Positions 7,611 through 40,048 of a stretch of 42,957 nt of DNA are shown here, piece by piece. How positions within the stretch are numbered: the stretch's first letter is position 1; each line of letters starts with the position of its first letter. Source of the DNA: Pseudomonadota bacterium (lineage in GTDB: Bacteria; Pseudomonadota; Gammaproteobacteria; Xanthomonadales; Rhodanobacteraceae); NCBI GenBank assembly GCA_021781425.1, contig JAJXWU010000232.1:1-42957 (forward strand), read 5' to 3'. Under the pieces are notes generated by a model, which saw only the letters and a list, made by a program, of their open reading frames with translations, made no database searches and had not been told where the DNA came from. The position numbers and the translations under genes were made by a program.

Positions 7611-8522
7611 ATGACCGAAAACGTCTCCTCACTCGAATCCGCCGAAACCGGACTGTCCGGGCCGCATGCCGACTGGCGCACGCCGCTGGAAATACTCCTG
7701 CTCGGTGCGATCTGGGGCGGCTCGTTCCTGTTCATGCGCATCGCCGCGCCGCATTTCGGACCGCTGCCGCTGGTCGAGGTGCGCGTCGCGCTTGGCGCGC
7801 TGATGCTGGCGCCGTTTCTGTGGCGTGCGCGCAAACAGCTCACTGCCGCGCATTGGCGCCGACTTGCACTGATCGGCGTGCTCAATTCCGCGATTCCATT
7901 TTCGCTGTTCGCCTGGGGCGCCGAGCGCGCGCCGGCCGGCATCGGCGCGATTGCCAACAGCATGACGGTGCTGTTCACCGCGCTGATCGCCTTCGTCTTC
8001 TACCGCGAGCGCATCGACCTGCGTCGCGGCATGGCGCTGATCGCCGGATTCGTCGGCGTCGTCATTCTCGCCAGCGGGCGCACCGCCGGCGACAACGTCG
8101 CGCTCGCGGCGTTCGCTGGGACGCTGGCATCGTTGTGTTACGGCATTGCCGCGAATCTGGTCAAGCGCAAACTGACGGATCTGCCGCCCGTCGTGGGGGT
8201 TGCCGGCACGCTCGGCTGTTCGGCATTGATGCTGGCACCGCTCGCGGCTGCGACCTGGCCAAGCGTGCCGGTGCCGGCATCGTCGTGGATGAGTGCGACC
8301 GCGCTCGGCGTGCTGTGCACCGGTTTCGCCTATTTCCTGTTCTTCCGCCTGATCCAACGCGTCTCGGCCGCACGCGCCGTCACCTGCAATTACCTTATTC
8401 CCGTATTCGGCGTGATCTGGGGATGGTGGCTGCTCGGCGAAACGCCGACGCCGACCATGCTTGTGTCCGGCATGCTGATCCTGGGCAGCGTGATCTTCAG
8501 CCAGCGCGAACCCGCACGCTAA
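7611..8522 (+). CDS. EamA/DMT-family transporter
   Basis: Multi-TM protein; LLGAIWGGSFLFMRIAAPHFGPLPLVEVRV and GVIWGWWLLGETPTPTMLVSGMLILGSV. Confidence 0.9.
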   Translation: MTENVSSLESAETGLSGPHADWRTPLEILLLGAIWGGSFLFMRIAAPHFGPLPLVEVRVALGALMLAPFLWRARKQLTAAHWRRLALIGVLNSAIPFSLFAWGAERAPAGIGAIANSMTVLFTALIAFVFYRERIDLRRGMALIAGFVGVVILASGRTAGDNVALAAFAGTLASLCYGIAANLVKRKLTDLPPVVGVAGTLGCSALMLAPLAAATWPSVPVPASSWMSATALGVLCTGFAYFLFFRLIQRVSAARAVTCNYLIPVFGVIWGWWLLGETPTPTMLVSGMLILGSVIFSQREPAR

Positions 8523-9604
8523 CGATTCGTCAACTGAATCTCGATGCGCCGGTTCTTCGCATAAGCCTCGGGCGTGTCGGCGGGATCCAGCGGCTGGAAC
8601 TGGCCGAAGCCGTTCGCGGAAAGCCGGTTGGCAGGGATGCCCTGCACGACGAGGTATTTGACGATCGCCACCGCGCGCGCGGTCGACAGTTCCCAATTCG
8701 ACGCAAATTGCGCGGTATGGATCGGACGCTTGTCGGTATGGCCGTCGATGCGCACAATCCAGTCCAGGCTCGACGGAATCTCCGCCGCGACTTCGTTCAG
8801 GGTTTGCGCGAGCTTCTTCATCTGCGCCTGCGCGGTGGGATTGAGTTCCGCCGATCCGGAATCGAACAGGATATCGGTCGGCACCACGAAGCGGTCGCCG
8901 ACGACGCGGATGTCGGCGCGGTTGCCGAGCGCGGCGCGCAGCTTGCCGAAGAATTCCGAGCGGTATTTCTCGAGCTGGTTGACCTTGTTGGCCAGCGCAA
9001 GATTGAGCTGCGTACCGAGGTCGGCGATCTTGAGATCCTTGTCCTTGATGTTCGCGTTGGCCAGATCCAGCTCCGTCGCGAGCTTGTTCAACTGCTCGCG
9101 TACGGCGGCAAGCTGGCGATTGAGCAGTTCGATCTGCGCGGTGGACTTGGCGTTGAGATCGGTCGCGACGACGAGGTTCTTCTTCGAGGTATCCAGTTCC
9201 GCGCCAAGGCTCGCTACCTGCTGTTCGAGCTGCGCCTTGAGCGCAGCGAGTGCGGCGATGTCGGCATTGAGCCTGGCGGCCTGCGCGCTGGCGGCGTCGA
9301 GCTGGTTCTTCAGAGCGTCGCGCTCGCCGGTCGTCGCGCCGAGCGAGGCGGAAAGTTCCTTCACCTTCGCATCGAGATTCCGATTGCTGTCCTGTGCCAG
9401 CGCCAGGGTCTTGGCGAGCTGAGCGATCTGCGCGTTGAGATCGGCCAGCGCGCGGTTCTTGCCGACCAGCGTCTGCGACAGCACGAATTGGCCGATCGCG
9501 AAAATCAGCAGGACGAAGATCATCACCAGGATCAGCGACGACAGCGCGTCGACAAAGCCCGGCCAGATGTCGAGCGCGCGGCGACGGCGCGCAAGCGAAT
9601 TCAT
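8519..9604 (-). CDS. MotB-like/OmpA-family peptidoglycan-binding protein with long periplasmic coiled coil
   Basis: Start at MNSLARRRRALDIWPGFVDALSSLILVMIFVLLIFAIGQF; long heptad-rich segment; C-terminal OmpA domain (ILFDSGSAELNPTAQ, RIDGHTDKRPI, NRRIEIQLTNR). Overlaps the upstream gene by ATGA. Confidence 0.88.
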   Translation of the reverse strand: MNSLARRRRALDIWPGFVDALSSLILVMIFVLLIFAIGQFVLSQTLVGKNRALADLNAQIAQLAKTLALAQDSNRNLDAKVKELSASLGATTGERDALKNQLDAASAQAARLNADIAALAALKAQLEQQVASLGAELDTSKKNLVVATDLNAKSTAQIELLNRQLAAVREQLNKLATELDLANANIKDKDLKIADLGTQLNLALANKVNQLEKYRSEFFGKLRAALGNRADIRVVGDRFVVPTDILFDSGSAELNPTAQAQMKKLAQTLNEVAAEIPSSLDWIVRIDGHTDKRPIHTAQFASNWELSTARAVAIVKYLVVQGIPANRLSANGFGQFQPLDPADTPEAYAKNRRIEIQLTNR

Positions 9605-10662
9605 TGCACGGCCCCGCGCTTGCCGTCGACGGCGGCGGCGATCGTGCGCGAGAGCAGGCGCAGCTCGCCGCGCAAATCGTCGGACAGGCGTTCGCTGCCG
9701 TTCGGCGCGGCGGCTATCGTTTTCAGGGCGTTCTTCAATTCTTCCTGCGTCTCGGCGAGGCTGCGGAATTCGCGCGTCTCGCGGCTGAGCAAATCGGCAA
9801 GACGGCCAAGCTGCGTATTCAGTTCGCCGAATTGTTCGCCGGATTGGCGTCGCTCGCGTTCGGATTCGGTCAATGCACGCTGCATGCGCTCCAGGCCATC
9901 GGCAGTTTGTTCGAGCAGGGCCTGCACATAGGCGGGAACACTGGCTTCGCCGTCGCCGTGCAGGGTGCCGGATGACAGCCGTGTCATGCTCGACAGCCAG
10001 TCTTCGAGTTCGTTGTAGAAACGGTTCTGCGCGTGACCGGATTGCAGGTCGAGAAATCCGAGCACGAGCGAGGAAGCCAAACCGAACAGCGACGTGGAAA
10101 AACTCGTCGACATTCCCGACAGCGGCTCTTTGAGATTTTCCTTGAGCGTATTGAACATGGCCGCAGGATCGGTGCCGACGCCGAGCGAGCCGATGATGTC
10201 GGCGACCGAGCGGATCGTGACCAGCAGCCCCCAGAACGTGCCAAGCAGGCCGAGGAAGATCGCGAGTCCGACGAGGTAGCGCGACAGGTCGCGCGATTCT
10301 TCGAGGCGCAGGTACACGCTGTCCAGCACCGAGCGCAGCGATTGCGTGGACAACGAGAACTTCGCGCGTTCGCGCCCGGCGAACATGCGCGCCATCGGTG
10401 CGAGCAGGCGCGGTTTGACCGGCAGCGGGCGATCCGGTGGCGAGCGCTTGAACGCCTCGATCCATTCAATTTCGCGCGACAGCAACAACACCTGGCGCAG
10501 GTTCGCGAAGATGCCGAACGCGAGCACAACCAGGATCACGCCGTTGAAGAAAGGATTGGCCGCAAAGTTTTGCGCGAGGCGCGTTGCCAGCAGCGCAGCG
10601 AGCACGCCGACAGCGGCCAGAAAGCCGAGCATCCAGACGAGGGCTTGGGAAGGTTTGGTCAT
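9601..10662 (-). CDS. MotA/TolQ/ExbB proton-channel-like protein
   Basis: MTKPSQALVWMLGFLAAVGVLAALLATRLAQ; LGLLGTFWGLLVTIRSVADIIGSL and STSLFGLASSLVLGFLDLQSG; charged helical C-terminal tail. Confidence 0.85.
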   Translation of the reverse strand: MTKPSQALVWMLGFLAAVGVLAALLATRLAQNFAANPFFNGVILVVLAFGIFANLRQVLLLSREIEWIEAFKRSPPDRPLPVKPRLLAPMARMFAGRERAKFSLSTQSLRSVLDSVYLRLEESRDLSRYLVGLAIFLGLLGTFWGLLVTIRSVADIIGSLGVGTDPAAMFNTLKENLKEPLSGMSTSFSTSLFGLASSLVLGFLDLQSGHAQNRFYNELEDWLSSMTRLSSGTLHGDGEASVPAYVQALLEQTADGLERMQRALTESERERRQSGEQFGELNTQLGRLADLLSRETREFRSLAETQEELKNALKTIAAAPNGSERLSDDLRGELRLLSRTIAAAVDGKRGAVQ

Positions 10663-10742: not shown

Positions 10743-13247
10743 TCACCGCCGAGGCTTCGCGCGCGCGGTCGGCTTCGCATTCCACGGGTCATCTGGCCAG
10801 GGGTGTCTCGGATAACGGCCTTTCAGTTCCTTCTTTACTTCCGGATACGTGCGTTCCCAGAAGCCGCGCAGATCCTGCGTGACCTGGATCGGCCGCTGCG
10901 CGGGCGAAAGCAGGTGCAAGGTCACCGCCACCTTGTCCTTGGCGATGCGCGGCGTGTCGGCGAGTCCGAAAAGTTCCTGCAGTTTGACCGCCAGCACCGG
11001 TGGCTTTCCCGCCTCGTAGTGCAGATGCTTGCTGCTGCCGCTCGGCACGGTCAGGGTTTCCGGCGCAAGCTCGTCGATGCGGCGGCGTTGCGTATGATCC
11101 AGCCGCGAGGCCAATGCCTCGCCGAGCAGTTGCGGCGCCAGCGCATCCAGTCGCGTCTTGCCGGCAAGATACGGCGCCAGCCATTCATCGAGGGATGCCA
11201 GCAGCGGGGCATCGGTTAGATCGGGCAGTTGCAGTTCCGGGCACCACTGGCGAAGGCAGGCCACGCGCACGCGCAGTGCAGTGGCGTGATCGCTCCACGG
11301 TAGCGATGCAAGGCCCGCATCGCGTACCGCAGCGAGCAGCGCGGGCAGGGCATCGGCGGGTTTTGCGGGAACGCTGCGGCGTTCGAGTACGAGCTGCGCA
11401 AAGCGGTATTGCTCGAACGCCTCGACCGCGCGCTTCTCGCGATTCCAGCGTGAAGTCCGCTCGCGCACGAAACTCGCGGAATAATCGCGTTCGAGCAGAT
11501 CGGGATCGAATGGCGTGGCGGCGAGAATCAGGCTGTCGCGCTCATCGAAGCGCAGGTCGACCGCGACCAACCAGGGTTCGCCGTAGAGTTGCGTGCTCTG
11601 GTGCAAATGTGCGCCGCGCCCGTTGCTCAGCCTGTAGCGGTAGGGATCGTTGCCGTCCTGCTTGGCAATGCGATCGGGAAAAGCGTGAATCAGCAGGTTG
11701 CCGATGGTGTGTGCATCGGCCGGGTCGGCCGACGCACGTATATCAAAGCGCCGCCGCCAGCCGGATGCGGCCTGATCGATCGCGGCAAGCGCCGCGGGAT
11801 CGGCCCCCGCGTTGCGCACCGCGCGCTTGTCGCTGCGCCATGCCTGCAGCGCCGCATGACGCGCGCGGAAACTGTCGCCGCGTCCGCTCTCGCCGCGCAG
11901 CGGATTGCGCGCTTCGATCAGGGCGATAAGATCGCATGCCAGCGCGCGCAGCGCGGGCGATGCGCGCAGGGCCATCGCGGCGAGTCGCGGCGTCGCGCCG
12001 GTCGCGAGTATGCGTTGGCCGAGTCCGGTCACGTGGCCATCCGGATCGAGCGCGCCGAGCAGAATGAGCAAATCACGCGCGCTCGCCAGCACGCCGGCAG
12101 GCGGGGCGTCGAGCCAGCGCAGATCCGACGAACCCCAGGCAGCCAGCTCCAGTGCCAGCGCGGACAACTCCGCGTGGGCGATTTCGGCACGGCGCGAAGG
12201 CTCCAGGCGCTGGCTCTGCGGCCACAGCCGGTACGCGACGCCTTCGACGACGCGGCCCGCGCGCCCGCTGCGCTGATCGGCGGAAGCCTGCGAGATCGAC
12301 ACGGTTTGCAAGCGCGAAAAACCTGAGTTGGGATCGAAACGCGGCTCGCGCGCAAGTCCCAGATCGATCACGGCACGGATGCCGGGCAGGGTAACGGAGG
12401 ATTCGGCCACATTCGTTGCCAGCACGATGCGGCGCGTGCCTGTTTTTGCCGGCGCCAAAGCGGCGTGCTGTTCGGCCAGCGACAACTCGCCGTGCAGCGC
12501 AACGATTTCGGCGGCAGCGCAGCCGCTCAGCACCCGCCGCGCCTGTTCGATCTCGCGCCGTCCGGGCAGGAACACGAGGATGTCGCCCTCGCTTTCATGC
12601 AATGTGGTTTCGCGCAGCGCGGTTTCTGCGACGCGGCGCAGATGCAACGGCCAATCCTCGTTCGCCTTCGCCGGCGGATACTCGATGCGTACGGGAAAGC
12701 TGCGCCCGGCGCTCGTCACGCGCGGCGCGTCGAGCCAGCGCGCGATACGCTCGCCGTCCAGCGTTGCCGACATGACGATCAGGCGCAGATCCGGACGCAG
12801 CGTGGCTTGTACCTCGAGCGCCAGCGCGGCGCCAAAATCGCCGGCGAGATGACGCTCGTGGAATTCGTCAAAAGCGATCGCGCCCACGTTCGGCAATGCC
12901 GGATCGGACTGGATCAGGCGCGTCAGGATGCCTTCGGTCACGACTTCCACGCGCGTGCGCGCGCAAACCTTCGCCTCGAAGCGGATGCGATAGCCGACGG
13001 TTTCGCCGACGCTCTCGCCCAGTTGTGCGGCCATGAACTCCGCCGCCGCGCGCGCGGCGATGCGGCGTGGTTCCAGCACGAGGATTTTTTTTCCGGCAAG
13101 CCAGTCCGCGTTCAGCACGGCGAGCGGCACCTGGGTGGTCTTGCCTGCGCCGGGAGGCGCTTCCAGCACCAGGCGCGGATGCTGCACGAGACTTGCGAGG
13201 ATTTCCGGCAGTACCGGCTGGATCGGAAATTGTGTACTTTTGCTCAT
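10743..13247 (-). CDS. hrpB: ATP-dependent helicase HrpB
   Basis: EAPPGAGKTTQVPL Walker A, DEFHER box, SATLDGERIARWL, QRSGRAGRV; HrpB C-terminal region ...RFRYPRHPWPDDP-like. Confidence 0.96.
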   Translation of the reverse strand: MSKSTQFPIQPVLPEILASLVQHPRLVLEAPPGAGKTTQVPLAVLNADWLAGKKILVLEPRRIAARAAAEFMAAQLGESVGETVGYRIRFEAKVCARTRVEVVTEGILTRLIQSDPALPNVGAIAFDEFHERHLAGDFGAALALEVQATLRPDLRLIVMSATLDGERIARWLDAPRVTSAGRSFPVRIEYPPAKANEDWPLHLRRVAETALRETTLHESEGDILVFLPGRREIEQARRVLSGCAAAEIVALHGELSLAEQHAALAPAKTGTRRIVLATNVAESSVTLPGIRAVIDLGLAREPRFDPNSGFSRLQTVSISQASADQRSGRAGRVVEGVAYRLWPQSQRLEPSRRAEIAHAELSALALELAAWGSSDLRWLDAPPAGVLASARDLLILLGALDPDGHVTGLGQRILATGATPRLAAMALRASPALRALACDLIALIEARNPLRGESGRGDSFRARHAALQAWRSDKRAVRNAGADPAALAAIDQAASGWRRRFDIRASADPADAHTIGNLLIHAFPDRIAKQDGNDPYRYRLSNGRGAHLHQSTQLYGEPWLVAVDLRFDERDSLILAATPFDPDLLERDYSASFVRERTSRWNREKRAVEAFEQYRFAQLVLERRSVPAKPADALPALLAAVRDAGLASLPWSDHATALRVRVACLRQWCPELQLPDLTDAPLLASLDEWLAPYLAGKTRLDALAPQLLGEALASRLDHTQRRRIDELAPETLTVPSGSSKHLHYEAGKPPVLAVKLQELFGLADTPRIAKDKVAVTLHLLSPAQRPIQVTQDLRGFWERTYPEVKKELKGRYPRHPWPDDPWNAKPTARAKPRR

Positions 13248-13302: not shown

Positions 13303-14496
13303 TTACTGGCAAGTCAGGCCGTTTATCTGGGTCAGACGCTTCCAGATCTTTGCGCCGCTTCCGGTCGGTACACCCGCCGGCAGGCCGGACGCGGATTGGT
13401 AGCTGAACTGCATCGTGTTGCAGTCCGGAAACTGGACGTTGAACGTGCCCCACACTGTCTGCGTCACCGAAGGTCCGAAATTGCCGGCAAAGCCGCCGCC
13501 GCTGGAATAACCCAGCGTCACTTGGGCCGAAGTATCACCGGCATTGAACGTACCGCTGCCAAACAACCAGTAGGGTACGCCGCTGGAATCGTAGGTGTAC
13601 CAGGCGACCACGATGTAACGCGGCACCGTGCTGCCGCTGCCCTGCAACTCGCCCACTTCCACCTGGATGCCTTCGCCGCTGTGATTCGAGTCGTACCAGT
13701 TGCCGGTCATGTAGCCGCTGATCGGCAGGGCTTGCGAAGCTTGTGCATATTGCGCGGGATTGTAAGTGCCGAGATTGAACGTGGTATAGCGGTTCGGATC
13801 GGCCGTGTTGAGTGTGTCGATCGTGAGCGTCAAGGCCTGATTGTAGTTCAGCTGAACCGAGCCGCCGTAGAAATTTTCCAGCACGAACACGTCGCTGCTG
13901 ACCAGCGGGTTGATGGCATACGTCGTGGAAAGAAACGTATTCGGATCGTCCGCCATGCGGATGTAGAAATTCTGCACGCCGCCTTGGGTGACGGACACGG
14001 CGGGCAAGGTCGGATACAAATTAGAGTTGCCTTCCATGTTGGAAGGGCGATCGATTTCCAGCAACGTAGCGGACAGACCGCTCGTGCATACGACGCGGAA
14101 CAGGTAGATCGTGTCCTGCTCGACGTATCTGGCCTCGCTGCCACCCGCATAGGGGTCGCCAAGCAGATTGACCTGGGCGCTCTGTGCATTGGGATCGTTC
14201 TGCCACATTCCCAACGGCATGGGCGAGTTCAGGCAGCTCGGGGGATAGGCGCGATCGGGATTGGCGAACAGCTCGGCCGGTTTCGTGCCACCGGGCTTGG
14301 CGCTGGCGACACCGGATTTCTGCGCGGATGCGATGGCCTGACTGGCCTGCGCCTGCATTTGCGCGCGTACCTGCTGCGCCCGCGCCAGATCCAACCTCGG
14401 CGTTGTGACGGCCGATGCGCCGGCTGCCTGCGCGATCGCCGCCGCGGCCAGTGCAGCAGCAGCGATGCTGCGGGAAAAAATCGTCGAGTATTTCAT
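13303..14496 (-). CDS. Secreted hypothetical protein with C-terminal WYTYDxxGxPxWL-type domain
   Basis: Start MKYSTIFSRSIAAAALAAAAIAQAAGA (signal peptide); SGYMTGNWYDSNHSGEGIQVEV...VVAWYTYDSSGVPYWLFGSG...WGTFNVQFPDCNTMQF...KRLTQINGLTC. Confidence 0.8.
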   Translation of the reverse strand: MKYSTIFSRSIAAAALAAAAIAQAAGASAVTTPRLDLARAQQVRAQMQAQASQAIASAQKSGVASAKPGGTKPAELFANPDRAYPPSCLNSPMPLGMWQNDPNAQSAQVNLLGDPYAGGSEARYVEQDTIYLFRVVCTSGLSATLLEIDRPSNMEGNSNLYPTLPAVSVTQGGVQNFYIRMADDPNTFLSTTYAINPLVSSDVFVLENFYGGSVQLNYNQALTLTIDTLNTADPNRYTTFNLGTYNPAQYAQASQALPISGYMTGNWYDSNHSGEGIQVEVGELQGSGSTVPRYIVVAWYTYDSSGVPYWLFGSGTFNAGDTSAQVTLGYSSGGGFAGNFGPSVTQTVWGTFNVQFPDCNTMQFSYQSASGLPAGVPTGSGAKIWKRLTQINGLTCQ

Positions 14497-14541
14497 CTCA
14501 ATCTCCCATGTCGAATTCCCGTGCGCGCAGCCTGTGGCGCC

Positions 14542-14555
14542 GCCGGTTAACCGGC
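14542..14555. promoter_or_regulatory. 14-bp perfect palindrome GCCGGTTAACCGGC in divergent promoter region
   Basis: Read directly; lies between the divergent 13303-14496 gene and tatD. Confidence 0.35.
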
Positions 14556-14614
14556 CGTGAACGCGCGCTGCGCGGTGTTGGCATAATGCCAGACTTTCCC
14601 GATAACGCACGGAC

Positions 14615-15418
14615 ATGCAACTCGTCGACATCGGCGCCAACCTGACCCACGAATCCTTTCGGCACGATTTCGATGCCGTACTGGCGCGCGCTCACGCGGC
14701 AGGGGTGGCCCATCTCATCGTGACGGGCGCCTCGTTGCAAGGTTCGCGCGAGGCACTGGAATTGGCGCGCACGCATTCGGGCGTGCTGTTCGCGACCGCG
14801 GGCGTGCATCCGCATCATGCCGGCGATTTCGATGCGGATATCGAAGCCGGATTGCGCGAACTGCATGCCCTGCCCGAGGTCGTGGCGGTTGGCGAAACCG
14901 GCCTGGATTATTTCCGCGATTTCTCGCCGCGCGCCGCGCAATTATTTGCGTTCGAGCGCCAATTGGAACTTGCCGCGGATTGCGGCAAGCCGCTGTTCCT
15001 GCATCAGCGTGATGCGCACGGCGATTTCATCGCCTGCATGGATAACGTGCTTGATCAACGCGGGCGCGGTCGCATCGCGCGCGCGGTGGTGCATTGCTTC
15101 ACCGGCACGCAGGGCGAATTGTTCGATTGCCTGGATCGCGATTTCCATATCGGCATCACCGGCTGGATCTGCGACGAGCGCCGCGGCGCGCACCTGCGCG
15201 AGCTGGTCAGGTCCATTCCGGCAAATCGCCTGATGCTGGAAACCGACGCACCGTACCTGCTGCCGCGCACCGTCAAGCCAGTGCCCTCGCACCGGCGCAA
15301 CGAGCCGATGTATCTGGCGCACATCTGCGCGCAAGTGGCGCGTGACCGCGGCGAGGATGTAGCTGTCACCGCAGCGAATGCTGCAGCGACTGCGCGTGAA
15401 TTCTTCGGATTGCCCTAG
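14615..15418 (+). CDS. tatD: TatD-family metal-dependent hydrolase/DNase
   Basis: MQLVDIGANLTHESF; ATAGVHPHHA; VGETGLDYFRDFSP; LETDAPYLLPR. Confidence 0.94.
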   Translation: MQLVDIGANLTHESFRHDFDAVLARAHAAGVAHLIVTGASLQGSREALELARTHSGVLFATAGVHPHHAGDFDADIEAGLRELHALPEVVAVGETGLDYFRDFSPRAAQLFAFERQLELAADCGKPLFLHQRDAHGDFIACMDNVLDQRGRGRIARAVVHCFTGTQGELFDCLDRDFHIGITGWICDERRGAHLRELVRSIPANRLMLETDAPYLLPRTVKPVPSHRRNEPMYLAHICAQVARDRGEDVAVTAANAAATAREFFGLP

Positions 15419-18257: not shown

Positions 18258-20084
18258 TCAGGACATTTCTGGACGAACAGACGCCGCTTCGGCCGCCTCG
18301 GTCGGCAGAGTCAAGGTGAAGCAGCTGCCTCGGCCGGACTCGCTGCGCAACGACAGTTCGCCACCGAGCAACTGGGTCAGCCGATGGCTCAGGTACAACC
18401 CCAGGCCTGACCCTTCCTGCACGCGACCGCTAGCCGCCGTGTGGATCTGGACAAAGGATTGCCTGAACAATCTGGATTGATCCTCCACGGCAATGCCAAT
18501 GCCCGTGTCGACGACACTGATCTGGAGCCGACCCGCAGCCGGCGGCAGCAGCGTGACGCTGATCGATCCACGTTCGGTGAACTTGACCGCATTACCGATC
18601 AAGTTGAGCAGAATTTGGCTCAGGGCACGCCGGTCGATCTGTAGCTGCACCGTGGAATCCGGCATACGGACCTCGAACGCCAAACCCTTCGCGATGGCCG
18701 CGGGCCGCAACGTCGCGACCGCTTCGTCGATCAATTGCTGAGCGACAACGGATTCCGGGTGAAGCGGAACGTTTCCGGACTCGATTTTTGCCACGTCCAG
18801 TATATCGTTTATCAAGGACAGCAGATGCTTGCCGCTGCTCTGGACGGTCTTGAGCTGCTTCTCCTGCTCGGTGTTGATCGGTCCCGGCAACTTCATCAGC
18901 AGGGTGCCGGTGAAGCCGATGATCGCATTGAGCGGAGTGCGCAATTCGTGCGACATCGAGGCCAAAAACTCGGTCTTCACGCGGTCGCTGGACTCGGCCT
19001 GATCCTTGGCTTCGCGCAGGGCGGTCTCGATGCGCTTGCGCGAATCGATGTCCAATGAAAGGATGAACAGCCCTTCCGGCACAGCCAGGACGCTGAGTTC
19101 GAACCATGCCGAACTCCCATCCGGACAGCGAAATTCATTCTCGAGATGGACGTTGCAGCGATCCTGCATGCACTGGCGCAATTTGGCGAAAAGATGCGTG
19201 CCTTCTATCTCCGGGAAGCAGTCGATCAGGGTACGCCCGAGCATGTCCTCCCTGCGCCGTCGCGACTGGTGCGCAACGGCAGCGTTGACGTAAACATAAC
19301 GCCATTCGTGGTCGATGATTTGCGCGCCCTCGAGCATGCCGTCCAGGGTGCCGCGAAAACGCGCCTCGCTCTGCGCCAACTCCCGGTCGTGGATCTGCAG
19401 GCGCTCGAGGAAACTGTTGAATCCGTCGGTGAGCCGTCCGATTTCATCGTCCCCGCGCGGCGGCGCCCTGAGCGTGAAATCCTGTTCCGCAGAGATTTTG
19501 CCGACAACCGCGGCGAGCGTGAGCAAGGGCCGCGAAACCCGCGCGTCAAGGTAGCGGGAAAACAGATACGACAGAACAGCGATCAACCCGGCTACCCACA
19601 GGGAAGCTTCAAGGTGGTAGCGCAGCCATGCACCAACATCCAGCGCGGCATTGTAATCTGTGCGCAAGAAGCCGAGAGGATGACCATCGCCGGCACGCAG
19701 AACGGTGATCGCGCGAAGATGCGATCCATCCCATTCGACATTTTCCGCGTTCCGGGGGAACGTAGAGCCGGCCGGGGACACATTGGCCGGATAGTGCGCC
19801 ACGATCGTACCGCGCGCATCGTAGATAATCGCGGCCTCGATGCGGTCTACGTCGCGAAAGGCGGCGAGAGCGCTGTTCGCCATTACGACGGAGTCGGAAC
19901 TCTGCAGCGCTTCAATTGCGTCTGCCGCGACAACGTGCAGCAAGGTGATAACGCGCCTCTCCTCCGCGCGTCGGAAGTCTGCGGATCGGTAGGCGAACAG
20001 CACGAATTCCATCAATACGACGAGCGCGACGAATATCAACGTCGTACTGACGATCAAATCGCGACGAATTGACCTGCTTTGCAT
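18258..20084 (-). CDS. Membrane sensor histidine kinase (periplasmic sensor-HAMP-PAS-HisKA-HATPase)
   Basis: Two TM segments flanking an extracytoplasmic domain; FLASMSHELRTPLNAIIGFTG H-box; LNLIGNAVKFTERG N-box; DTGIGI; GSGLGLYLSHRL. Confidence 0.93.
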   Translation of the reverse strand: MQSRSIRRDLIVSTTLIFVALVVLMEFVLFAYRSADFRRAEERRVITLLHVVAADAIEALQSSDSVVMANSALAAFRDVDRIEAAIIYDARGTIVAHYPANVSPAGSTFPRNAENVEWDGSHLRAITVLRAGDGHPLGFLRTDYNAALDVGAWLRYHLEASLWVAGLIAVLSYLFSRYLDARVSRPLLTLAAVVGKISAEQDFTLRAPPRGDDEIGRLTDGFNSFLERLQIHDRELAQSEARFRGTLDGMLEGAQIIDHEWRYVYVNAAVAHQSRRRREDMLGRTLIDCFPEIEGTHLFAKLRQCMQDRCNVHLENEFRCPDGSSAWFELSVLAVPEGLFILSLDIDSRKRIETALREAKDQAESSDRVKTEFLASMSHELRTPLNAIIGFTGTLLMKLPGPINTEQEKQLKTVQSSGKHLLSLINDILDVAKIESGNVPLHPESVVAQQLIDEAVATLRPAAIAKGLAFEVRMPDSTVQLQIDRRALSQILLNLIGNAVKFTERGSISVTLLPPAAGRLQISVVDTGIGIAVEDQSRLFRQSFVQIHTAASGRVQEGSGLGLYLSHRLTQLLGGELSLRSESGRGSCFTLTLPTEAAEAASVRPEMS

Positions 20085-20505: not shown

Positions 20506-23349
20506 ATGGCGCACATACTCATCGTCGACGATCGGGCGGTCAATCTGGATTTTCTGGAAGCGGTGCTGAATTTCGCGAACCATCGCGTATCACGCGCGAT
20601 GGATGGCGAACAGGCGCTGCAGATCGTCCGCGAAACGCGCCCCGATCTCGTCATCACCGATGTGCTGATGCCCAACATCGGCGGCGTCGAATTGGCCGAC
20701 AGCATCCATCGCGATCCTGCCATTTCGGCAACACCGATCATTTTCTACACCGCCCAGGGCCGTGACCCCGAGGCCAACATCCTCGCCGATTCCTGCCACG
20801 TTGCCGCGGTATTGGTCAAACCCGCGGAGCCGCAAGCAATTCTTGATACGGTCGCACAGGTGCTCGGCGGCAAGCCTCCCCCGCAGCTGTTGCCGATGCG
20901 GCAGAACACGGTATACCCGGCTTTTCTGTCGGCAAAATTGCCGGCTCACATGCGCGACCTGGCCGATCTGCAGGCGCGGCTGCGCGGAATCCTTGACCGG
21001 GTACTCGAAGGGGATGCACCGAAAGCGGACACGAATGTGCTCGGGCTGGCGCTGCAAAAACTCAGCCTGCGCACGCAAAAGCTGTTTGACCTCAATCTGG
21101 CCGTGTCCGCACAAAGTGATTTCGGCGAGATGCTGAATGCTTTTTGTGCGATCGCCTCGAACGTAATGTCCAGCGATTACGTCGGCGTTTACATCTACGA
21201 CGTCGACGGCAAGCGTCTGCAACACTCGGGGAAATACGGACTTCCGGACGCGGTCGCCGCGCAGATGTCCCAGATGGACGCGGACGCCGGCATGCGGCAA
21301 ACCGTGATGACTGCGGACCAACCGTTCCGGGCCCGCGCGAACGGCGCAGAACCGACGACGTTGGGATTACCCGATTTCCATCCCCCGGTCTTGAGTCTGC
21401 TGGCGGTGCCGATGCCGGTACGTGCGAGCAATCCACTCAAAGGCTGGATTTACTTCGCGAACAAGGCTGATGAATCGGCGTTCGACAGCGAGGACGAGCA
21501 GTTTGCGGTAATTCTCGCGCTGCAGCTATCGCTGGCCTATGCCAATTTGTCGATGCTCGATGAAGTGCGCAGGCATGCGGAGAAGCTCGAATTGGAGGTG
21601 GCCGCAAGGCGCCAAGCCCAGGAAGAGCTCACGTTTCGTGCAAGCCACGATCAGGTCACGGGATTGCCGCGCGGGGTGCTGATCGAAGCCGAACTCGAAA
21701 AAGCAATCGCGCGCGCGACGATCGAAAACGGCCGCGTGATCGTGCTGCACATCAATGTCGATTATTTCCATTCGATCAACAAGAATTATGGCCGCAAGAT
21801 CGGGGATGACGTGCTGCGCTGCATCGCCGATCGTCTGCGTGGCATCGTCGCTGACGCTGGCCGTGTTGCGCACGTCGCGGGCGACGAGTTCATGCTGATT
21901 TTCCCCGATCCCACCGGAGCGATGGAGCAATTGGATTTCGCCGACAGCGTGCGCGCGCGGATGGAAGAACCGGTGAAAACGGCGCTCGGCGACATCCGCA
22001 TTACCTGCAGCGTCGGTGCGAGCTGTTATCCCGACAACGGCGCAACCGCACAGGAGCTGTTGCATGAGGCCGAAGAAGCCACCCAGAACGCAAAGCTCGA
22101 TGGTCGTAATCTGGCAATGGCTTTCTCGAATGAGCGCAAGCAACAGTTGCGCGAGCAGATTGCGCTCGGCATGCAGTTGCGCGAAGCGATCCAAACCGAG
22201 CAGTTGATCTTGCACTATCAGCCGCAGATCAACGGTCTGGACTGGCAGATCCTCGGCTTTGAGGCGCTGGTGCGCTGGCAACACCCCGAACTCGGACTGC
22301 TCGGTCCGGCACGCTTCATCCCCATCGCCGAGGAGCTCGGCCTGATCGTCGAGTTGGGTGATTGGGTTCTCAAATCCGTTTGTCGGCAGATTCGGGTGTG
22401 GCTCGACAGCGGCGCGGATGATTTTCTCGTCTCCGTCAATGTCTCCCCCAAGCAATTTCTGCGCTCGAATTTTGTCGAAAACCTGCAGGCGGCAATTGCG
22501 ACACAAGGCGTGCGTGCGCGACACCTGGAGCTCGAACTGACCGAGAGCGCCATGGCTCGGCGCTTCGACGTTATAGCCAACTCGATGAAGCTCATGAAGC
22601 GCATGGGCATACGCCTTGCCTTGGACGATTTCGGGACCGGCTATTCCAGTCTTAACCGCCTGCGCCAATTCCCACTGGATCGACTGAAAATCGATCAGGG
22701 CTTCGTCAACAACATCGCCTCCGATGCCAGCGCCGCCGGCATCTGCCGCGCGATTATTGCTCTCGGCCACCAGCTGGGCCTGAAAGTGACCGCCGAGGGC
22801 GTGGAAACGGCTGCGCAGGTGGGGTATTTGCTGCGCAACGAGTGCGATGAATTCCAGGGATATTATTTCAGCGGTCCGGTCGGACCCACGGTCGCGCTGG
22901 ATTTGCTCAAGCACCGCTATATCAGCCGTCAAAGCGTGCCATCTCAACTGGGGAAGGAAATCCTGTTGATCGTGGATGATGAAGAAAATGTCCTGCACGC
23001 GCTGAAGCGGACTCTGCGACGCGACGGTTACGAGATTCTGAGCGCGACGAATGCGGGTGAGGCCTTCGAATTGCTGGCCAAAAACGACGTGCAAGTCATC
23101 GTTTCGGACCAACGCATGCCCGATTGCAGCGGCACCGACTTTCTCAGCCAGGTCAAGGAAATGTACCCGGCGACCGTGCGCATGGTACTCAGCGGCTACA
23201 CCGATCTTGCCGCAGTCACCGATGCGATAAACCGGGGCGCGATATACAAGTTCCTGACCAAGCCATGGAACGACACGCAGTTGCGCGAGCACATCCGCGA
23301 AGCATTCAGAGTGAACCGGGGCCGAGAGCAGGCGCGCGCAACGCCTTGA
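20506..23349 (+). CDS. REC-GAF-GGDEF(AGDEF)-EAL-REC cyclic-di-GMP signalling protein
   Basis: N-terminal ILIVDDRAVNLDFLEAV...VITDVLMPNIGGVEL; GAF-like segment; HDQVTGLPRG...VAHVAGDEFMLIF; EALVRWQHPELGLL, LALDDFGTGYSSL, KIDQGFV, AEGVET; C-terminal ILLIVDDEENVLHALKRTL...VIVSDQRMPDCSGTDFL...FLTKPWND. Confidence 0.94.
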   Translation: MAHILIVDDRAVNLDFLEAVLNFANHRVSRAMDGEQALQIVRETRPDLVITDVLMPNIGGVELADSIHRDPAISATPIIFYTAQGRDPEANILADSCHVAAVLVKPAEPQAILDTVAQVLGGKPPPQLLPMRQNTVYPAFLSAKLPAHMRDLADLQARLRGILDRVLEGDAPKADTNVLGLALQKLSLRTQKLFDLNLAVSAQSDFGEMLNAFCAIASNVMSSDYVGVYIYDVDGKRLQHSGKYGLPDAVAAQMSQMDADAGMRQTVMTADQPFRARANGAEPTTLGLPDFHPPVLSLLAVPMPVRASNPLKGWIYFANKADESAFDSEDEQFAVILALQLSLAYANLSMLDEVRRHAEKLELEVAARRQAQEELTFRASHDQVTGLPRGVLIEAELEKAIARATIENGRVIVLHINVDYFHSINKNYGRKIGDDVLRCIADRLRGIVADAGRVAHVAGDEFMLIFPDPTGAMEQLDFADSVRARMEEPVKTALGDIRITCSVGASCYPDNGATAQELLHEAEEATQNAKLDGRNLAMAFSNERKQQLREQIALGMQLREAIQTEQLILHYQPQINGLDWQILGFEALVRWQHPELGLLGPARFIPIAEELGLIVELGDWVLKSVCRQIRVWLDSGADDFLVSVNVSPKQFLRSNFVENLQAAIATQGVRARHLELELTESAMARRFDVIANSMKLMKRMGIRLALDDFGTGYSSLNRLRQFPLDRLKIDQGFVNNIASDASAAGICRAIIALGHQLGLKVTAEGVETAAQVGYLLRNECDEFQGYYFSGPVGPTVALDLLKHRYISRQSVPSQLGKEILLIVDDEENVLHALKRTLRRDGYEILSATNAGEAFELLAKNDVQVIVSDQRMPDCSGTDFLSQVKEMYPATVRMVLSGYTDLAAVTDAINRGAIYKFLTKPWNDTQLREHIREAFRVNRGREQARATP

Positions 23350-23365: not shown

Positions 23366-24568
23366 TCAGCCGGCACCACGCGCATTCGCGGGGTCCGCAT
23401 CCACAGCCGGCGTCGGTTGTCGTTGCGGCAGAACGATGCGGAATGTGGTGCCCACGCCCGGTGTGCTCTGTACCTCGATCCGCCCGCCATGTTTGCGCAC
23501 GATGCCGTAAGACAGGGACAAGCCGAGGCCGGTTCCTTGCCCGACCGGTTTGGTGGTGAAGAACGGATCAAAGATCTTGGCCAAATTTTCCGGTGAAATT
23601 CCGCAGCCGCTGTCGGAAATCGCGACGACGACGTTTTCACCTTCACAGCAGGTCGCGACCTTGATCGAACCACGGTTCTCGATCGCGTGTCCGGCATTGA
23701 CCAGGATGTTCAGGAATACCTGGTTCAATTGCGATGGCAGGCATTCCACGCGCGGAATCTCGTCGTATTGCCGCAGCACCTCGCATTTGTATTTCAGATC
23801 GTTCCAGACGATATTGAGCGTGCTATCGAGTCCCTGCTGCAAGTCGGCCAACGTCCATTCCTCGGTGCTGCCGGCGCGCGAAAAATCGCGCAGATCCTGC
23901 ACGATTTTTCGCACCCGCTCGGTTCCCTCGCGGGATTCCGACAACAGATTGGGCAGATCCCTTACCAGAAAATCGTAGTCCGCCTGTTCCTTGAGCAGGG
24001 CGATCTCGGCGTGCCGCGCATCGCTGTCCGGGATTAACTGACGCAGCAAGCTCTCGTACGTGGAAATCAATTGCAGCATGTTCCTGACGTATTCATTCAA
24101 TGTCGCCAGGTTCGAATGGATATAGCCGATCGGATTGTTTATTTCATGCGCGACGCCGGCAGCCAATTGGCCGATCGAGGCCATCTTGTCGGCCTGGAGC
24201 AACTGCGCTTCGATGCTGCGCAGGTGCGCATTGTCCGTTTCGGTCTTGCGCCGTTGGTCCAGCGACTCGCTGGCTGGTCCATCCTCGGGTTCGATCAGGG
24301 CCACAAAACGCACTGTGCCGATTCCGCTGCGCGGGGCGGTCTGCACGGTGACGCGCAAGCGATGGCTGCGCCCGGATGAATCCACGCATTCGCGCTGCTG
24401 GCCATGGATCCCGTCGCGCTCCGCCGAGGCCAATGCCTCTTGGTCGACGAGTCCGCGCAACATGGTCGCTGGCCATTCTGTCGTCGACCCGTCCAGAAGT
24501 GTGTGCACGCCCGAAGTCGCGCAAAACAGGACGCCGTGGTGAACTTCGAGGTGATTTTGTTGCTGCAT
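23366..24568 (-). CDS. Cytosolic PAS-type sensor histidine kinase
   Basis: No TM; MASIGQLAAGVAHEINNPIGYIHSNL H-box; NQVFLNILVNAGHAIENRG; DSGCGISPENLAKIFDPFFTTKPVGQGTGLGLSLSYGIV. Confidence 0.92.
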   Translation of the reverse strand: MQQQNHLEVHHGVLFCATSGVHTLLDGSTTEWPATMLRGLVDQEALASAERDGIHGQQRECVDSSGRSHRLRVTVQTAPRSGIGTVRFVALIEPEDGPASESLDQRRKTETDNAHLRSIEAQLLQADKMASIGQLAAGVAHEINNPIGYIHSNLATLNEYVRNMLQLISTYESLLRQLIPDSDARHAEIALLKEQADYDFLVRDLPNLLSESREGTERVRKIVQDLRDFSRAGSTEEWTLADLQQGLDSTLNIVWNDLKYKCEVLRQYDEIPRVECLPSQLNQVFLNILVNAGHAIENRGSIKVATCCEGENVVVAISDSGCGISPENLAKIFDPFFTTKPVGQGTGLGLSLSYGIVRKHGGRIEVQSTPGVGTTFRIVLPQRQPTPAVDADPANARGAG

Positions 24569-36422: not shown

Positions 36423-36544
36423 TCCCCGGCCTCCCCCGAGAAAGGTCAACGCGGCGCATCATACAAGGTCTTGGACGCGCCGCCACGGGCGGCGGGGAGG
36501 CGACTGGTAGAATGGACGTCCGCCCGCCATCTCCCGGCTCCGTC

Positions 36545-39500
36545 ATGTCCGTCCCCGCTGCCAAGATCGATTTCGACTACACCCTCGAGCACAAGTACAC
36601 GCGCGAACGCGGCCGGGTTTACCTGTCCGGTGTGCAGGCATTGGTGCGGCTGCCTCTGATGCAGCAGATGCGCGATCGCGCCGCCGGCTTGACCACAGCG
36701 GGATTCATCTCCGGCTACCGCGGCTCGCCATTGGGTGGTTTCGATCTGGAATTGTGGAAGGCGAAGAAGCATCTCGCTGCTGCCAGCATCGAATTTCAGC
36801 CGGGCCTGAACGAGGACCTCGGCGCGACCATGGTCTGGGGCACCCAGCAGGCCAATCTTTTCCCTGGCGCCAGGTACGACGGCGTATTTTCGATGTGGTA
36901 CGGCAAAGGCCCCGGGGTCGATCGTTGCGGCGACGTGTTCAAGCATGGCAACGCGGCCGGCACATCGAAGAATGGCGGCGTGCTTGCGCTCGCCGCAGAC
37001 GACCATGCTTGCCGCTCGTCCACCTTGCCGCACGGCTCGGAACTCGAATTCGTCAGCGCGATGATGCCGATACTCAATCCTGCCGGCGTACAGGATATTC
37101 TGGACATGGGCCTGCTCGGCTGGGCGATGAGCCGTTTCACGGGGCGCTGGGTCGGATTCAAGACGATCGCCGAGACGGTCGAGTCCTCGGCCAGCGTCAA
37201 CGTCAATCCGCATCAGTTGGACATCGTGCTGCCGCAGGATTTCGAGTTGCCGCCGGGTGGGCTGAACATCCGCTGGCCCGATCCACCGCTGGATCAGGAA
37301 ATGCGTCTGCACCAGTACGCGGTGAAAGCCGCATGTGCGTTCGCACGCGCGAACAAGCTCGACCGCGTGGTGCTCGATTCGCCGCAAGCGCGGCTCGGCA
37401 TCGTCACCACCGGCAAGAGTTATCTCGATGTCTTGCAGGCGCTGGAATACCTCGGCATCAACGAGCGTGACGCGCGCGAGATCGGCATTCGCGTGTACAA
37501 GGTCGGCATGACCTGGCCGCTGGAGCCGATCGGCATCCGCGAGTTCGCGCGCGGTCTCGAAGACATCATCGTGGTCGAGGAGAAGCGTTCCTTCCTCGAA
37601 TCGCAGATGAAGGAATACATGTTCAATTGGGACGTACGTCCGCACATCGTCGGCAAGTACGACGAGGACGGCAACTGGATATTGCCGAGCACGAACGAAT
37701 TGACGCCGGCGATGATCGCGCTGGTCGTCGCCAAGCGCTTGTCGCGCTTCTTCAGCAGCGAGGCGATGACCGCGCGCGTGGCCTGGATAGCCGCGAAAGA
37801 ACACGAACTGACGCTACCGCGAGCGAATTTTCCGCGCGTGCCGCACTACTGCTCCGGCTGCCCGCACAACACGTCGACCAATGTTCCGGAAGATTCGCGC
37901 GCGCTCGGCGGCATCGGCTGCCACTACATGGTGACGTGGATGGACCGGCGCACCGACACCTTCACCCAGATGGGCGGCGAGGGCGCGACCTGGTGCGGGC
38001 AGGCGCCGTTCACCGCAACCAAGCACGTCTTCCAGAATCTCGGCGACGGCACGTATTTCCATTCCGGCTCGCTCGCGATCCGGCAGGCGGTCGCGGCCGG
38101 CGTCAACATCACCTACAAGATTCTGTACAACGATGCGGTAGCGATGACCGGCGGCCAGCCGGTGGACGGCAAGCTGTCCGTGCCGGCCATCGCGCATCAG
38201 GTGCGCAGCGAGGGCGTTGCGACCATCGTCGTGATGGGCGACGACATCGAGAAATGGTCGGATGCGGCCATCTTCCCGGCCGATGTCGAATTCATCCATC
38301 GCGACGAACTCGACGCCGTGCAGAAACGCCTGCGCGAAGTCGAGGGTGTGTCCGTGCTGATCTACGACCAGACCTGCGCCACCGAAAAACGCCGCCGGCG
38401 CAAGCGCGGCAAGATGGCCGATCCGAACAAGCGCGTGTTCATCAACTCGCTGGTGTGCGAGGGCTGCGGCGACTGCGGCAAGGAATCGTTTTGTGTCTCG
38501 GTACTGCCGAAGGAAACCGAGTACGGACGCAAGCGCGAAATCGACCAGTCGAGCTGCAACAAGGATTTCTCCTGCGTGAAGGGGTTTTGCCCAAGTTTCG
38601 TCACCGTGCACGGCGGCGGGCTGAAGAAACGCAAGCCCGGTGGCAGCAAAGTGGATTTTTCCACAATTCCGCAAGCGCAATTCGCGAGTGATTTGTCCAA
38701 GCCCTGGAACATCCTCGTCACCGGCATTGGCGGCACCGGCGTCGTCACCATCGGCGCGCTGATCGGCATGGCCGCGCACCTGGAAGGCAAGGGCAGCACC
38801 GTGCTCGACCAGACCGGTCTCGCGCAAAAAGGCGGTGCGGTGACCTGCCATCTGCGCATCGCGAAATCGCCGGCGGATATTCACGCCGTGCGCATCGCCG
38901 CCGGCGAGGCCGATGCCGTGCTCGGCTGCGACATGGTCGTGGTCAACGACTACTGGTCACTGTCGAAGATTCGCGCCGGCCGCTCGCGCGTCGTGCTCAA
39001 TTCGTACGAAGCGATGCCCGGCAGTTTCACCATGAAGCCGGACATGCAGTTCCCGGCGAACGGCATCGTCGATGCGGTCAAGACCGCGCTCGGCGGTGCC
39101 TTGCCCGACATCGTCGACGCCACCGACTTCGCCGTCAAACTGCTCGGCGATTCGATCGGCGCCAATCTTTTCATGCTCGGCTACGCCTGGCAGAAAGGCT
39201 GGGTGCCGTTATCGCTCGAAGCGTTGATGCGCGCGGTGGAACTCAACGGCGCCGCGGTGGAAATGAACAAGACCGCATTCAACTGGGGCCGCATGGCCGC
39301 GCACGATATCGCACGCGTGCGTGATGCTGCCGGCGGCGTGATGGAGAAGAATGCTGACACAATCATGCCGCTGGACGATTCGCGTCTGAGCACCACGCTC
39401 GACGAACGCGTCGCCCGTCGCATCATTTTTCTCACCGACTACCAGAACGCCGCCTACGCAGCGAAATACAAGGCTCTCGTCGACAAGGCGCGCAGTACGG

Positions 39501-40048
39501 AAGCCGCCAAAGTTCCGGGCTCGAGCGCCCTCGCTGAAGCCGTGGCGCGCTATGCGTTCAAGCTGATGGCCTACAAGGACGAATACGAAGTCGCACGCCT
39601 GTACACCGCGGGCGATTTCGAAAAGCGCATCCGTGAACAGTTCGACGGCGATTTCAAACTGCATTTCCACCTGGCACCGCCGCTGCTCGCGCGTCGCGAT
39701 TCGGAGGGAAAACTGCGCAAGGGCGAATACGGCGGGTGGGTGTTTGCTGCGTTCCGGCTACTGGCAAAACTGCGTGGACTGCGTGGCAGTGCGTTCGATA
39801 TTTTCGGCTACACGGCCGAGCGCAAGCATGAGCGCGCGCTGATCGGCGAATACTTCACCACCGTCGATGAGTTGCTGGCGAAACTGGATCGCGACAATCT
39901 CGGATTGGCAGTTGATATCGCCAGCGTGCCCGAACACATCCGCGGCTACGGCCACATCAAGCACGCGCATCTGGACAAGGCGCGGACGCGTCGTGAACAA
40001 TTGCTTGGCGCTTGGCGCAATCCTCAGGGCGCGCGGGTTGCGGCATAA
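36545..40048 (+). CDS. Fused indolepyruvate ferredoxin oxidoreductase family protein
   Basis: 1167-aa ORF from MSVPAAKIDFDYTLEHKYTRERGRVYLSG; GYRGSPLGGFD; YCSGCPHNTSTNVPEDSRALGGIGCHYM; GGEGATWCGQAPFT; FeS cysteines CEGCGDCGKESFC; GIGGTGVVTIGALIGMAAH. Confidence 0.95.
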   Translation: MSVPAAKIDFDYTLEHKYTRERGRVYLSGVQALVRLPLMQQMRDRAAGLTTAGFISGYRGSPLGGFDLELWKAKKHLAAASIEFQPGLNEDLGATMVWGTQQANLFPGARYDGVFSMWYGKGPGVDRCGDVFKHGNAAGTSKNGGVLALAADDHACRSSTLPHGSELEFVSAMMPILNPAGVQDILDMGLLGWAMSRFTGRWVGFKTIAETVESSASVNVNPHQLDIVLPQDFELPPGGLNIRWPDPPLDQEMRLHQYAVKAACAFARANKLDRVVLDSPQARLGIVTTGKSYLDVLQALEYLGINERDAREIGIRVYKVGMTWPLEPIGIREFARGLEDIIVVEEKRSFLESQMKEYMFNWDVRPHIVGKYDEDGNWILPSTNELTPAMIALVVAKRLSRFFSSEAMTARVAWIAAKEHELTLPRANFPRVPHYCSGCPHNTSTNVPEDSRALGGIGCHYMVTWMDRRTDTFTQMGGEGATWCGQAPFTATKHVFQNLGDGTYFHSGSLAIRQAVAAGVNITYKILYNDAVAMTGGQPVDGKLSVPAIAHQVRSEGVATIVVMGDDIEKWSDAAIFPADVEFIHRDELDAVQKRLREVEGVSVLIYDQTCATEKRRRRKRGKMADPNKRVFINSLVCEGCGDCGKESFCVSVLPKETEYGRKREIDQSSCNKDFSCVKGFCPSFVTVHGGGLKKRKPGGSKVDFSTIPQAQFASDLSKPWNILVTGIGGTGVVTIGALIGMAAHLEGKGSTVLDQTGLAQKGGAVTCHLRIAKSPADIHAVRIAAGEADAVLGCDMVVVNDYWSLSKIRAGRSRVVLNSYEAMPGSFTMKPDMQFPANGIVDAVKTALGGALPDIVDATDFAVKLLGDSIGANLFMLGYAWQKGWVPLSLEALMRAVELNGAAVEMNKTAFNWGRMAAHDIARVRDAAGGVMEKNADTIMPLDDSRLSTTLDERVARRIIFLTDYQNAAYAAKYKALVDKARSTEAAKVPGSSALAEAVARYAFKLMAYKDEYEVARLYTAGDFEKRIREQFDGDFKLHFHLAPPLLARRDSEGKLRKGEYGGWVFAAFRLLAKLRGLRGSAFDIFGYTAERKHERALIGEYFTTVDELLAKLDRDNLGLAVDIASVPEHIRGYGHIKHAHLDKARTRREQLLGAWRNPQGARVAA

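Follow-up and report, generated by a model that had tools for sequence, protein, structure and literature searches.

What might a MotA/MotB-like gene pair energise where no flagellar, Tol or Ton gene lies nearby? The question is raised by a 42,957-nt contig from a gammaproteobacterium of the family Rhodanobacteraceae (GenBank assembly GCA_021781425.1, contig JAJXWU010000232.1; hereafter the window, meaning this whole stretch), in which a first-pass annotation made from the letters alone had picked out a MotA/TolQ/ExbB-like gene overlapping a MotB-like gene. Both were located as described, on the minus strand: the A subunit gene spans 9601..10662 (353 aa), the B subunit gene spans 8519..9604 (361 aa), and the A stop and B start share an ATGA at 9601-9604, through which translation of the two is likely to be coupled. 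The same annotation had remarked on the lack of flagellar, Tol or TonB genes around the pair, and none were detected among the window proteins scanned.

The A subunit combines a MotA/TolQ/ZorA fold with four TM segments (near residues 7-25, 42-60, 130-148 and 188-206) and a helical cytoplasmic tail. Its two pore-lining TM helices, placed by alignment at residues 126-207 (10042..10287, minus strand; motifs GLLGTFWGLL and FSTSLFGL), carry the polar residues T142 and S191, both invariant across 45 aligned homologues, and S189, which is nearly so. The tail follows at residues 208-353 (9604..10041, minus strand), and an AF2 structure prediction (mean pLDDT 84) consists of long helices with a helical tail at 244-351. 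Foldseek matched A to TolQ, ExbB and ZorA, each with probability 1.00 but an E-value of only about 2e-3 and no family ahead, while the MotA_ExbB profile scored 19.9 bits for the protein (cut-off, 22.9) and 27.2 bits over the whole frame.

The B subunit has a single TM segment with an acidic residue, as had been claimed: Asp19, the predicted ion-carrying residue, lies in a WPGFVD motif at residues 14-19 (9548..9565, minus strand). W14, P15, V18 and D19 are invariant in 37 homologues, and a WPGFVD-type pattern occurred in 0 of 100 shuffled sequences. At the other end, residues 246-352 (8549..8869, minus strand) form the OmpA-like peptidoglycan-binding domain that had been proposed (Pfam, 3e-20), with the GHTD and LSTARA motifs retained and the MotS, MotB-like and PomB periplasmic domains as nearest solved structures. 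The pair has an A fold with polar TM residues and an acidic residue in the B TM helix, the combination that marks the superfamily of 5:2 ion-driven motors. Between its two ends, B residues 45-226 (8927..9472, minus strand) form a coiled-coil rod of 182 residues with 0 Pro and 6 Gly, and AF2 (mean pLDDT 81) predicts residues 18-226 as one unbroken helix.

The heptad-like character attributed earlier to about 180 residues of B was borne out by the I/L/V/M/F spectrum of the rod, which peaks at 3.50 residues, a peak equalled by 0 of 2000 shuffles. The 48 large hydrophobics cluster at two of the seven heptad positions, spaced 3-4 residues from each other, which together account for 31 of them (18/26 and 13/26, compared with 2-5/26 at the other five), and between residue 45 and about residue 200 the hydrophobic phase changes little. 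If the rod is taken as the distance between the TM Asp and the GDRF motif, it is 217 residues long in window B, the reference, and 168 to 726 residues long across B homologues. The coiled coil, described at first as exceptionally long, is therefore long relative to MotB and ZorB but not within its own family.

Rod lengths were quantised in heptads. Among a first set of 110 homologues (lengths 168-630), 92 differed from 217 by a multiple of 7. The same held for 49 of 71 rods in an independent one-per-family set and, with each distinct length counted once, for 24 of 45 lengths (binomial p about 2e-25 and about 9e-10, respectively); these p-values ignore shared ancestry, an effect limited both by one-per-family sampling and by the use of distinct lengths. 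Most of the remaining one-per-family rods are offset by a classic stutter (4 residues; 10 rods) or stammer (3 residues; 8 rods). A general artefact was rejected, as heptad quantisation was seen neither in the lengths of the A tails nor in the Pro-rich linkers of a third gene described below (12 sequences only). Because lengths step by 7 rather than 14, a parallel dimer is favoured over an antiparallel hairpin, and because they vary by whole heptads, length is free and helical phase fixed, as in a rigid shaft and not a flexible tether. In our reading of these sequences, selection acts on the angle between the TM pair and the OmpA pair, as would be expected for a rigid parallel coiled coil. The part of the window rod outside the membrane (about 184 residues) would measure about 27 nm if straight, and the shortest and longest B rods about 22 nm and about 100 nm. 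Rods of 500-630 residues occur in Roseomonas-like bacteria (L078:7140-10124, L071:7368-9299 and L098:3690-5795); if straight, these would reach about 75-90 nm, far exceeding the width of the periplasm, and the L078 B bears an additional C-terminal domain.

The pair also differs from characterised stators. Flagellar MotA/MotB, PomB and MotS likewise have an OmpA-ended B and four TM segments in A, but the single predicted helix and phase-locked rod of B leave no place for their plug and flexible linker, and A scores as TolQ/ZorA-like. TolQR and ExbBD share the A fold and a GLLGTFWGLL-type core, but A has one extra N-terminal TM segment (four, not three) and B ends in an OmpA domain, not an ExbD/TolR-type periplasmic domain. 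The first-pass annotation had said that its interpretation would be overturned if the pair proved clearly orthologous to a flagellar, Tol or gliding stator, and no such orthology was found. A flagellar role was rejected because FliG_C was absent from the window's 90% complete genome in a search that detected its positive controls. A recent stator survey describes non-flagellar B subunits ('generic ion transporters') as being without OmpA ends and long linkers (PMC12505986); the family studied here is a counter-example to that particular statement.

The pair had initially been called an orphan, a label that has to be dropped: it belongs to a conserved family that is part of the alphaproteobacterial core, where its gene neighbourhood is fixed and usually includes a third gene. 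Window B matches NCBIfam NF006543 (PRK09039.1) with 438.3 bits over residues 4-361 (curated equivalog cut-off, 305), and PRK09039 models matched 37 of 37 aligned homologues. That entry is titled "peptidoglycan-binding protein" and gives neither a function nor an architecture, partner or distribution, and the Sinorhizobium pair is named 'peptidoglycan -binding protein' and 'MotA/TolQ/ExbB proton channel family protein'. Literature on PRK09039 yielded nothing useful, and a survey of alphaproteobacterial signature proteins makes no mention of the A/B proteins (PMC2241609).

Similar pairs, mentioned in the earlier annotation as occurring in alphaproteobacteria, are widespread there: A is present in 196 of 289 sampled Alphaproteobacteria, with small genomes among the lineages, and in 106 of 120 genomes of family f60, which we infer to be the Acetobacteraceae. 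Of 16 congeneric genomes searched, among them the one that contains the window, 15 have A, as do 96 of 399 Pseudomonadota, few of these being Gammaproteobacteria. On a tree, the alphaproteobacterial sequences form one group, barring one probably mislabelled MAG; the window lineage falls outside this group, as do Thauera/Denitromonas, and a recent transfer from alphaproteobacteria was rejected on this basis. The family is old, vertical in Alphaproteobacteria and patchy in Beta- and Gammaproteobacteria, and the pair is vertically kept in the window's genus. Mobile-element cargo was rejected as well: there were no phage matches, and the five A matches in a plasmid collection all lay on multi-megabase non-mobilizable replicons. 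In one reduced genome of 0.9 Mb, the A match (G248:C2:75930-76745) is interrupted by one TGA and one TAA and looks like a decaying pseudogene.

Within the window, the pair is neighboured by genes for hrpB, EamA, pseudouridine synthase, TatD and isocitrate dehydrogenase, and some members of the genus keep the synteny with icd, pseudouridine synthase and hrpB, which the wider family retains to some extent. The upstream hrpB helicase gene (10743..13247, minus strand; syntenic in G001, G006 and G011) is considered to lie outside the system, and the convergent EamA transporter gene downstream (7611..8522, plus strand) does not belong to it. Between hrpB and tatD lies a gene for a 445-aa protein without a Pfam match (13303-14640, minus strand); some members of the genus share it, with identities of 51-72%. 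Elsewhere, the window encodes a long indolepyruvate/pyruvate ferredoxin oxidoreductase-like protein with POR and DUF6537 domains (36512-40048, plus strand) and a GAF-GGDEF-EAL protein that ends in a C-terminal receiver domain (20506-23349, plus strand), adjoined by histidine kinases at 18258-20084 and 23366-24568. The typical alphaproteobacterial order is efp - inositol monophosphatase - third gene - A - B, and Sinorhizobium has thiE, sel1, IMPase, A, B.

Taken at the level of sequence, the comparisons support the earlier proposal of an ion-driven, wall-tethered module that is neither flagellar nor Tol/Ton. The account we favour, with reasonable though far from full confidence, is that the pair forms an ion-driven motor of 5:2 type distinct from both flagellar and Zorya motors, tied to the wall by a rigid rod and serving a constitutive envelope role. 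By homology (A5B2), five A subunits would ring two B TM helices, ions would pass B Asp19 facing the Thr/Ser ring of A, and A and B would turn relative to each other. Prediction and comparison show the B TM helix continuing, phase-locked, through about 27 nm of coiled coil directly into the OmpA domain. Force or torque would travel along this stiff shaft to peptidoglycan, or back from it, at a long distance from the inner membrane; the cytoplasmic A tails would make a second rod, a likely contact point for a partner. The work would be done on the envelope in growth and division, not in phage defence or swimming. Such a housekeeping role is our best reading because of the frequency of A in alphaproteobacteria and congeners, the retained synteny, the efp, IMPase and thiE neighbours and the lack of phage matches. 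Rods of 600-700 residues (about 100 nm) count against the account as a whole, as they cannot stand upright in the periplasm.

The Zorya structures of ZorA/ZorB (PDB 8VVN, 8QYD; PMC11890865) provide the best mechanical analogy, with an ordered B helix leading to the peptidoglycan-binding domain and a cytoplasmic A rod, and they resemble the pair in A fold, TM Asp, OmpA end and cytoplasmic tail. The stiff rod could instead report the position of peptidoglycan and open ion flow or move the A tails, making the pair a sensor of wall distance or wall damage, as proposed for resting ZorAB. The nearest profile relatives are indeed ZorA1/ZorA3 for A and, among defence models, ZorB3/ZorB1 for B; the A tail is helical, and in ZorB, too, an ordered helix runs straight into the peptidoglycan-binding domain (PMC11890865). 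However, the distribution is that of a core gene, with no island context and no effector gene nearby, and a sensor tuned to one distance would not be expected to accept rods that vary from 168 to 726 residues, so we regard sensing as unlikely, if worth keeping in mind.

The third gene encodes a protein with a signal peptide, an extended Pro-rich region and, at the C terminus, an OmpA-like domain that has (A)YA in place of GHTD and has thereby lost the GHTD Asp. A V(D/N)LSVL-like motif, conserved and resembling a docking site, directly follows the signal-peptide cleavage site. Of about 75 family representatives, 57 have the gene, and in 56 of them it lies on the strand of A and no more than 900 nt away (examples upstream of A are L061:4967-5917, L056:4845-5963 and L070:1592-2707, among other alphaproteobacterial loci). 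A profile that finds the alphaproteobacterial controls did not detect it in the window's genus or family or in G019, near-complete genomes included, nor did it reveal a copy elsewhere in the window's genome or its congeners. The third protein is thus a candidate partner of the pair but not an obligatory one, and its absence from the window's genus is a further point against the favoured account. This protein could act as force transducer if the pair energised outer-membrane or envelope transport in a Ton/Tol-like manner, a role suggested by its secretion, by its position just upstream of A and by a Pro-rich linker that recalls TonB. Its absence from the window's genus and family, together with a separate MotA_ExbB-family protein of TolQ/ExbB type in the window's genome, makes this role improbable. 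A broader proposal is possible but tentative: Alphaproteobacteria would have, as part of their core gene set, a separate class of rotary envelope motor with a heptad-quantised coiled-coil driveshaft, up to about 100 nm long in some lineages, that delivers torque to or along the wall in growth or division, mostly together with a secreted OmpA-like partner.

The output of the module had been left as unknown, which is largely right, except that phenotypes of both gain and loss of function have been published for probable orthologues in Komagataeibacter (PMC6570709, PMC6315621, PMC7347698). In K. hansenii, a host without flagella, 'motA' (348 aa) and 'motB' (321 aa) encode a 4-TM A and an OmpA-ended B (Jacek et al. 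2018-2019; PMC6570709), which share with the window pair a large A loop between TM2 and TM3, a one-TM B and a C-terminal OmpA domain (PMC6570709, PMC6315621). L278, from a 3.4-Mb f60 genome, encodes a pair of exactly 348 + 321 aa (348/320 in a second genome), 44-47% identical to the window pair, and its genome has two long cellulose synthase reading frames (1574 and 1619 aa). Given these protein sizes, the cellulose synthase and the paper's BLAST table, the K. hansenii pair very probably belongs to the studied family. Its overexpression gave elongated, chained cells, thicker cellulose ribbons, polar GFP foci and threefold faster colony spreading on soft agar (PMC6570709) and left the shape of E. 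coli unaffected, while disruption resulted in denser cellulose (reviewed in PMC7347698). The proteins were interpreted there as motility proteins, unlike here, where the phenotypes are counted in favour of an envelope motor. A stator for gliding or spreading, analogous to AglRQS or GldLM, would fit the faster colony spreading, but this may stem from cell elongation or looser cellulose, the family spans very broad lineages, small genomes included, and no gliding genes were seen nearby; we find a surface-motility role quite doubtful. More generally, the K. hansenii phenotypes, which come mainly from overexpression, may be indirect.

The resemblance to ZorA/ZorB without ZorC, ZorD or ZorE, pointed out in the first-pass annotation, is real but confined. 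The ZorA profile matched A with 45.8 bits (E 9e-13) over residues 123-241 only, that is, the TM core, and ZorA1/ZorA3 profiles matched 45 of 45 members of the A family weakly and over the same core; ZorB3 matched B with E 7.5e-25, mostly from the OmpA part. PADLOC identified no ZorC, ZorD, ZorE or other defence gene among the 9 neighbours scanned. Compared with Zorya, window A is half the length, with a tail half as long, and the B rod is far longer than that of ZorB and variable in length; the pair is core-distributed, and the patchy, island-like distribution expected of Zorya was not observed. Besides the studied pair, a congeneric genome, G014, encodes a true ZorA3/DUF802 protein, which scores 1231 bits over 698 aa, indicating two separate families. 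Genuine ZorA type III/DUF802 proteins (PADLOC ZorA3, about 1100-1230 bits) are found at L031:142-2235 (G014) and L025:190-2283 (same order). With 46 bits in the TM core against 1231 over full length, a short tail, no partner genes among the neighbours scanned and near-universal vertical presence in alphaproteobacteria, Zorya membership is rejected, and even a degenerate or alternative anti-phage system with a type-III-like core lacking ZorE is highly improbable.

The B family was already known by name (NF006543), and its architecture, partner, distribution and heptad-quantised rod are described here. Two thirds of the sampled Alphaproteobacteria, rhizobia included, carry what is probably an energised envelope machine, which has barely been studied and, where it was, has been taken for a motility protein. 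Conflation with Zorya or flagellar MotB would mislead the annotation of defence and motility genes. The heptad-locked rod contrasts with the flexible linker of MotB and would provide a sharp structural test of rigid torque transfer by stator B subunits.
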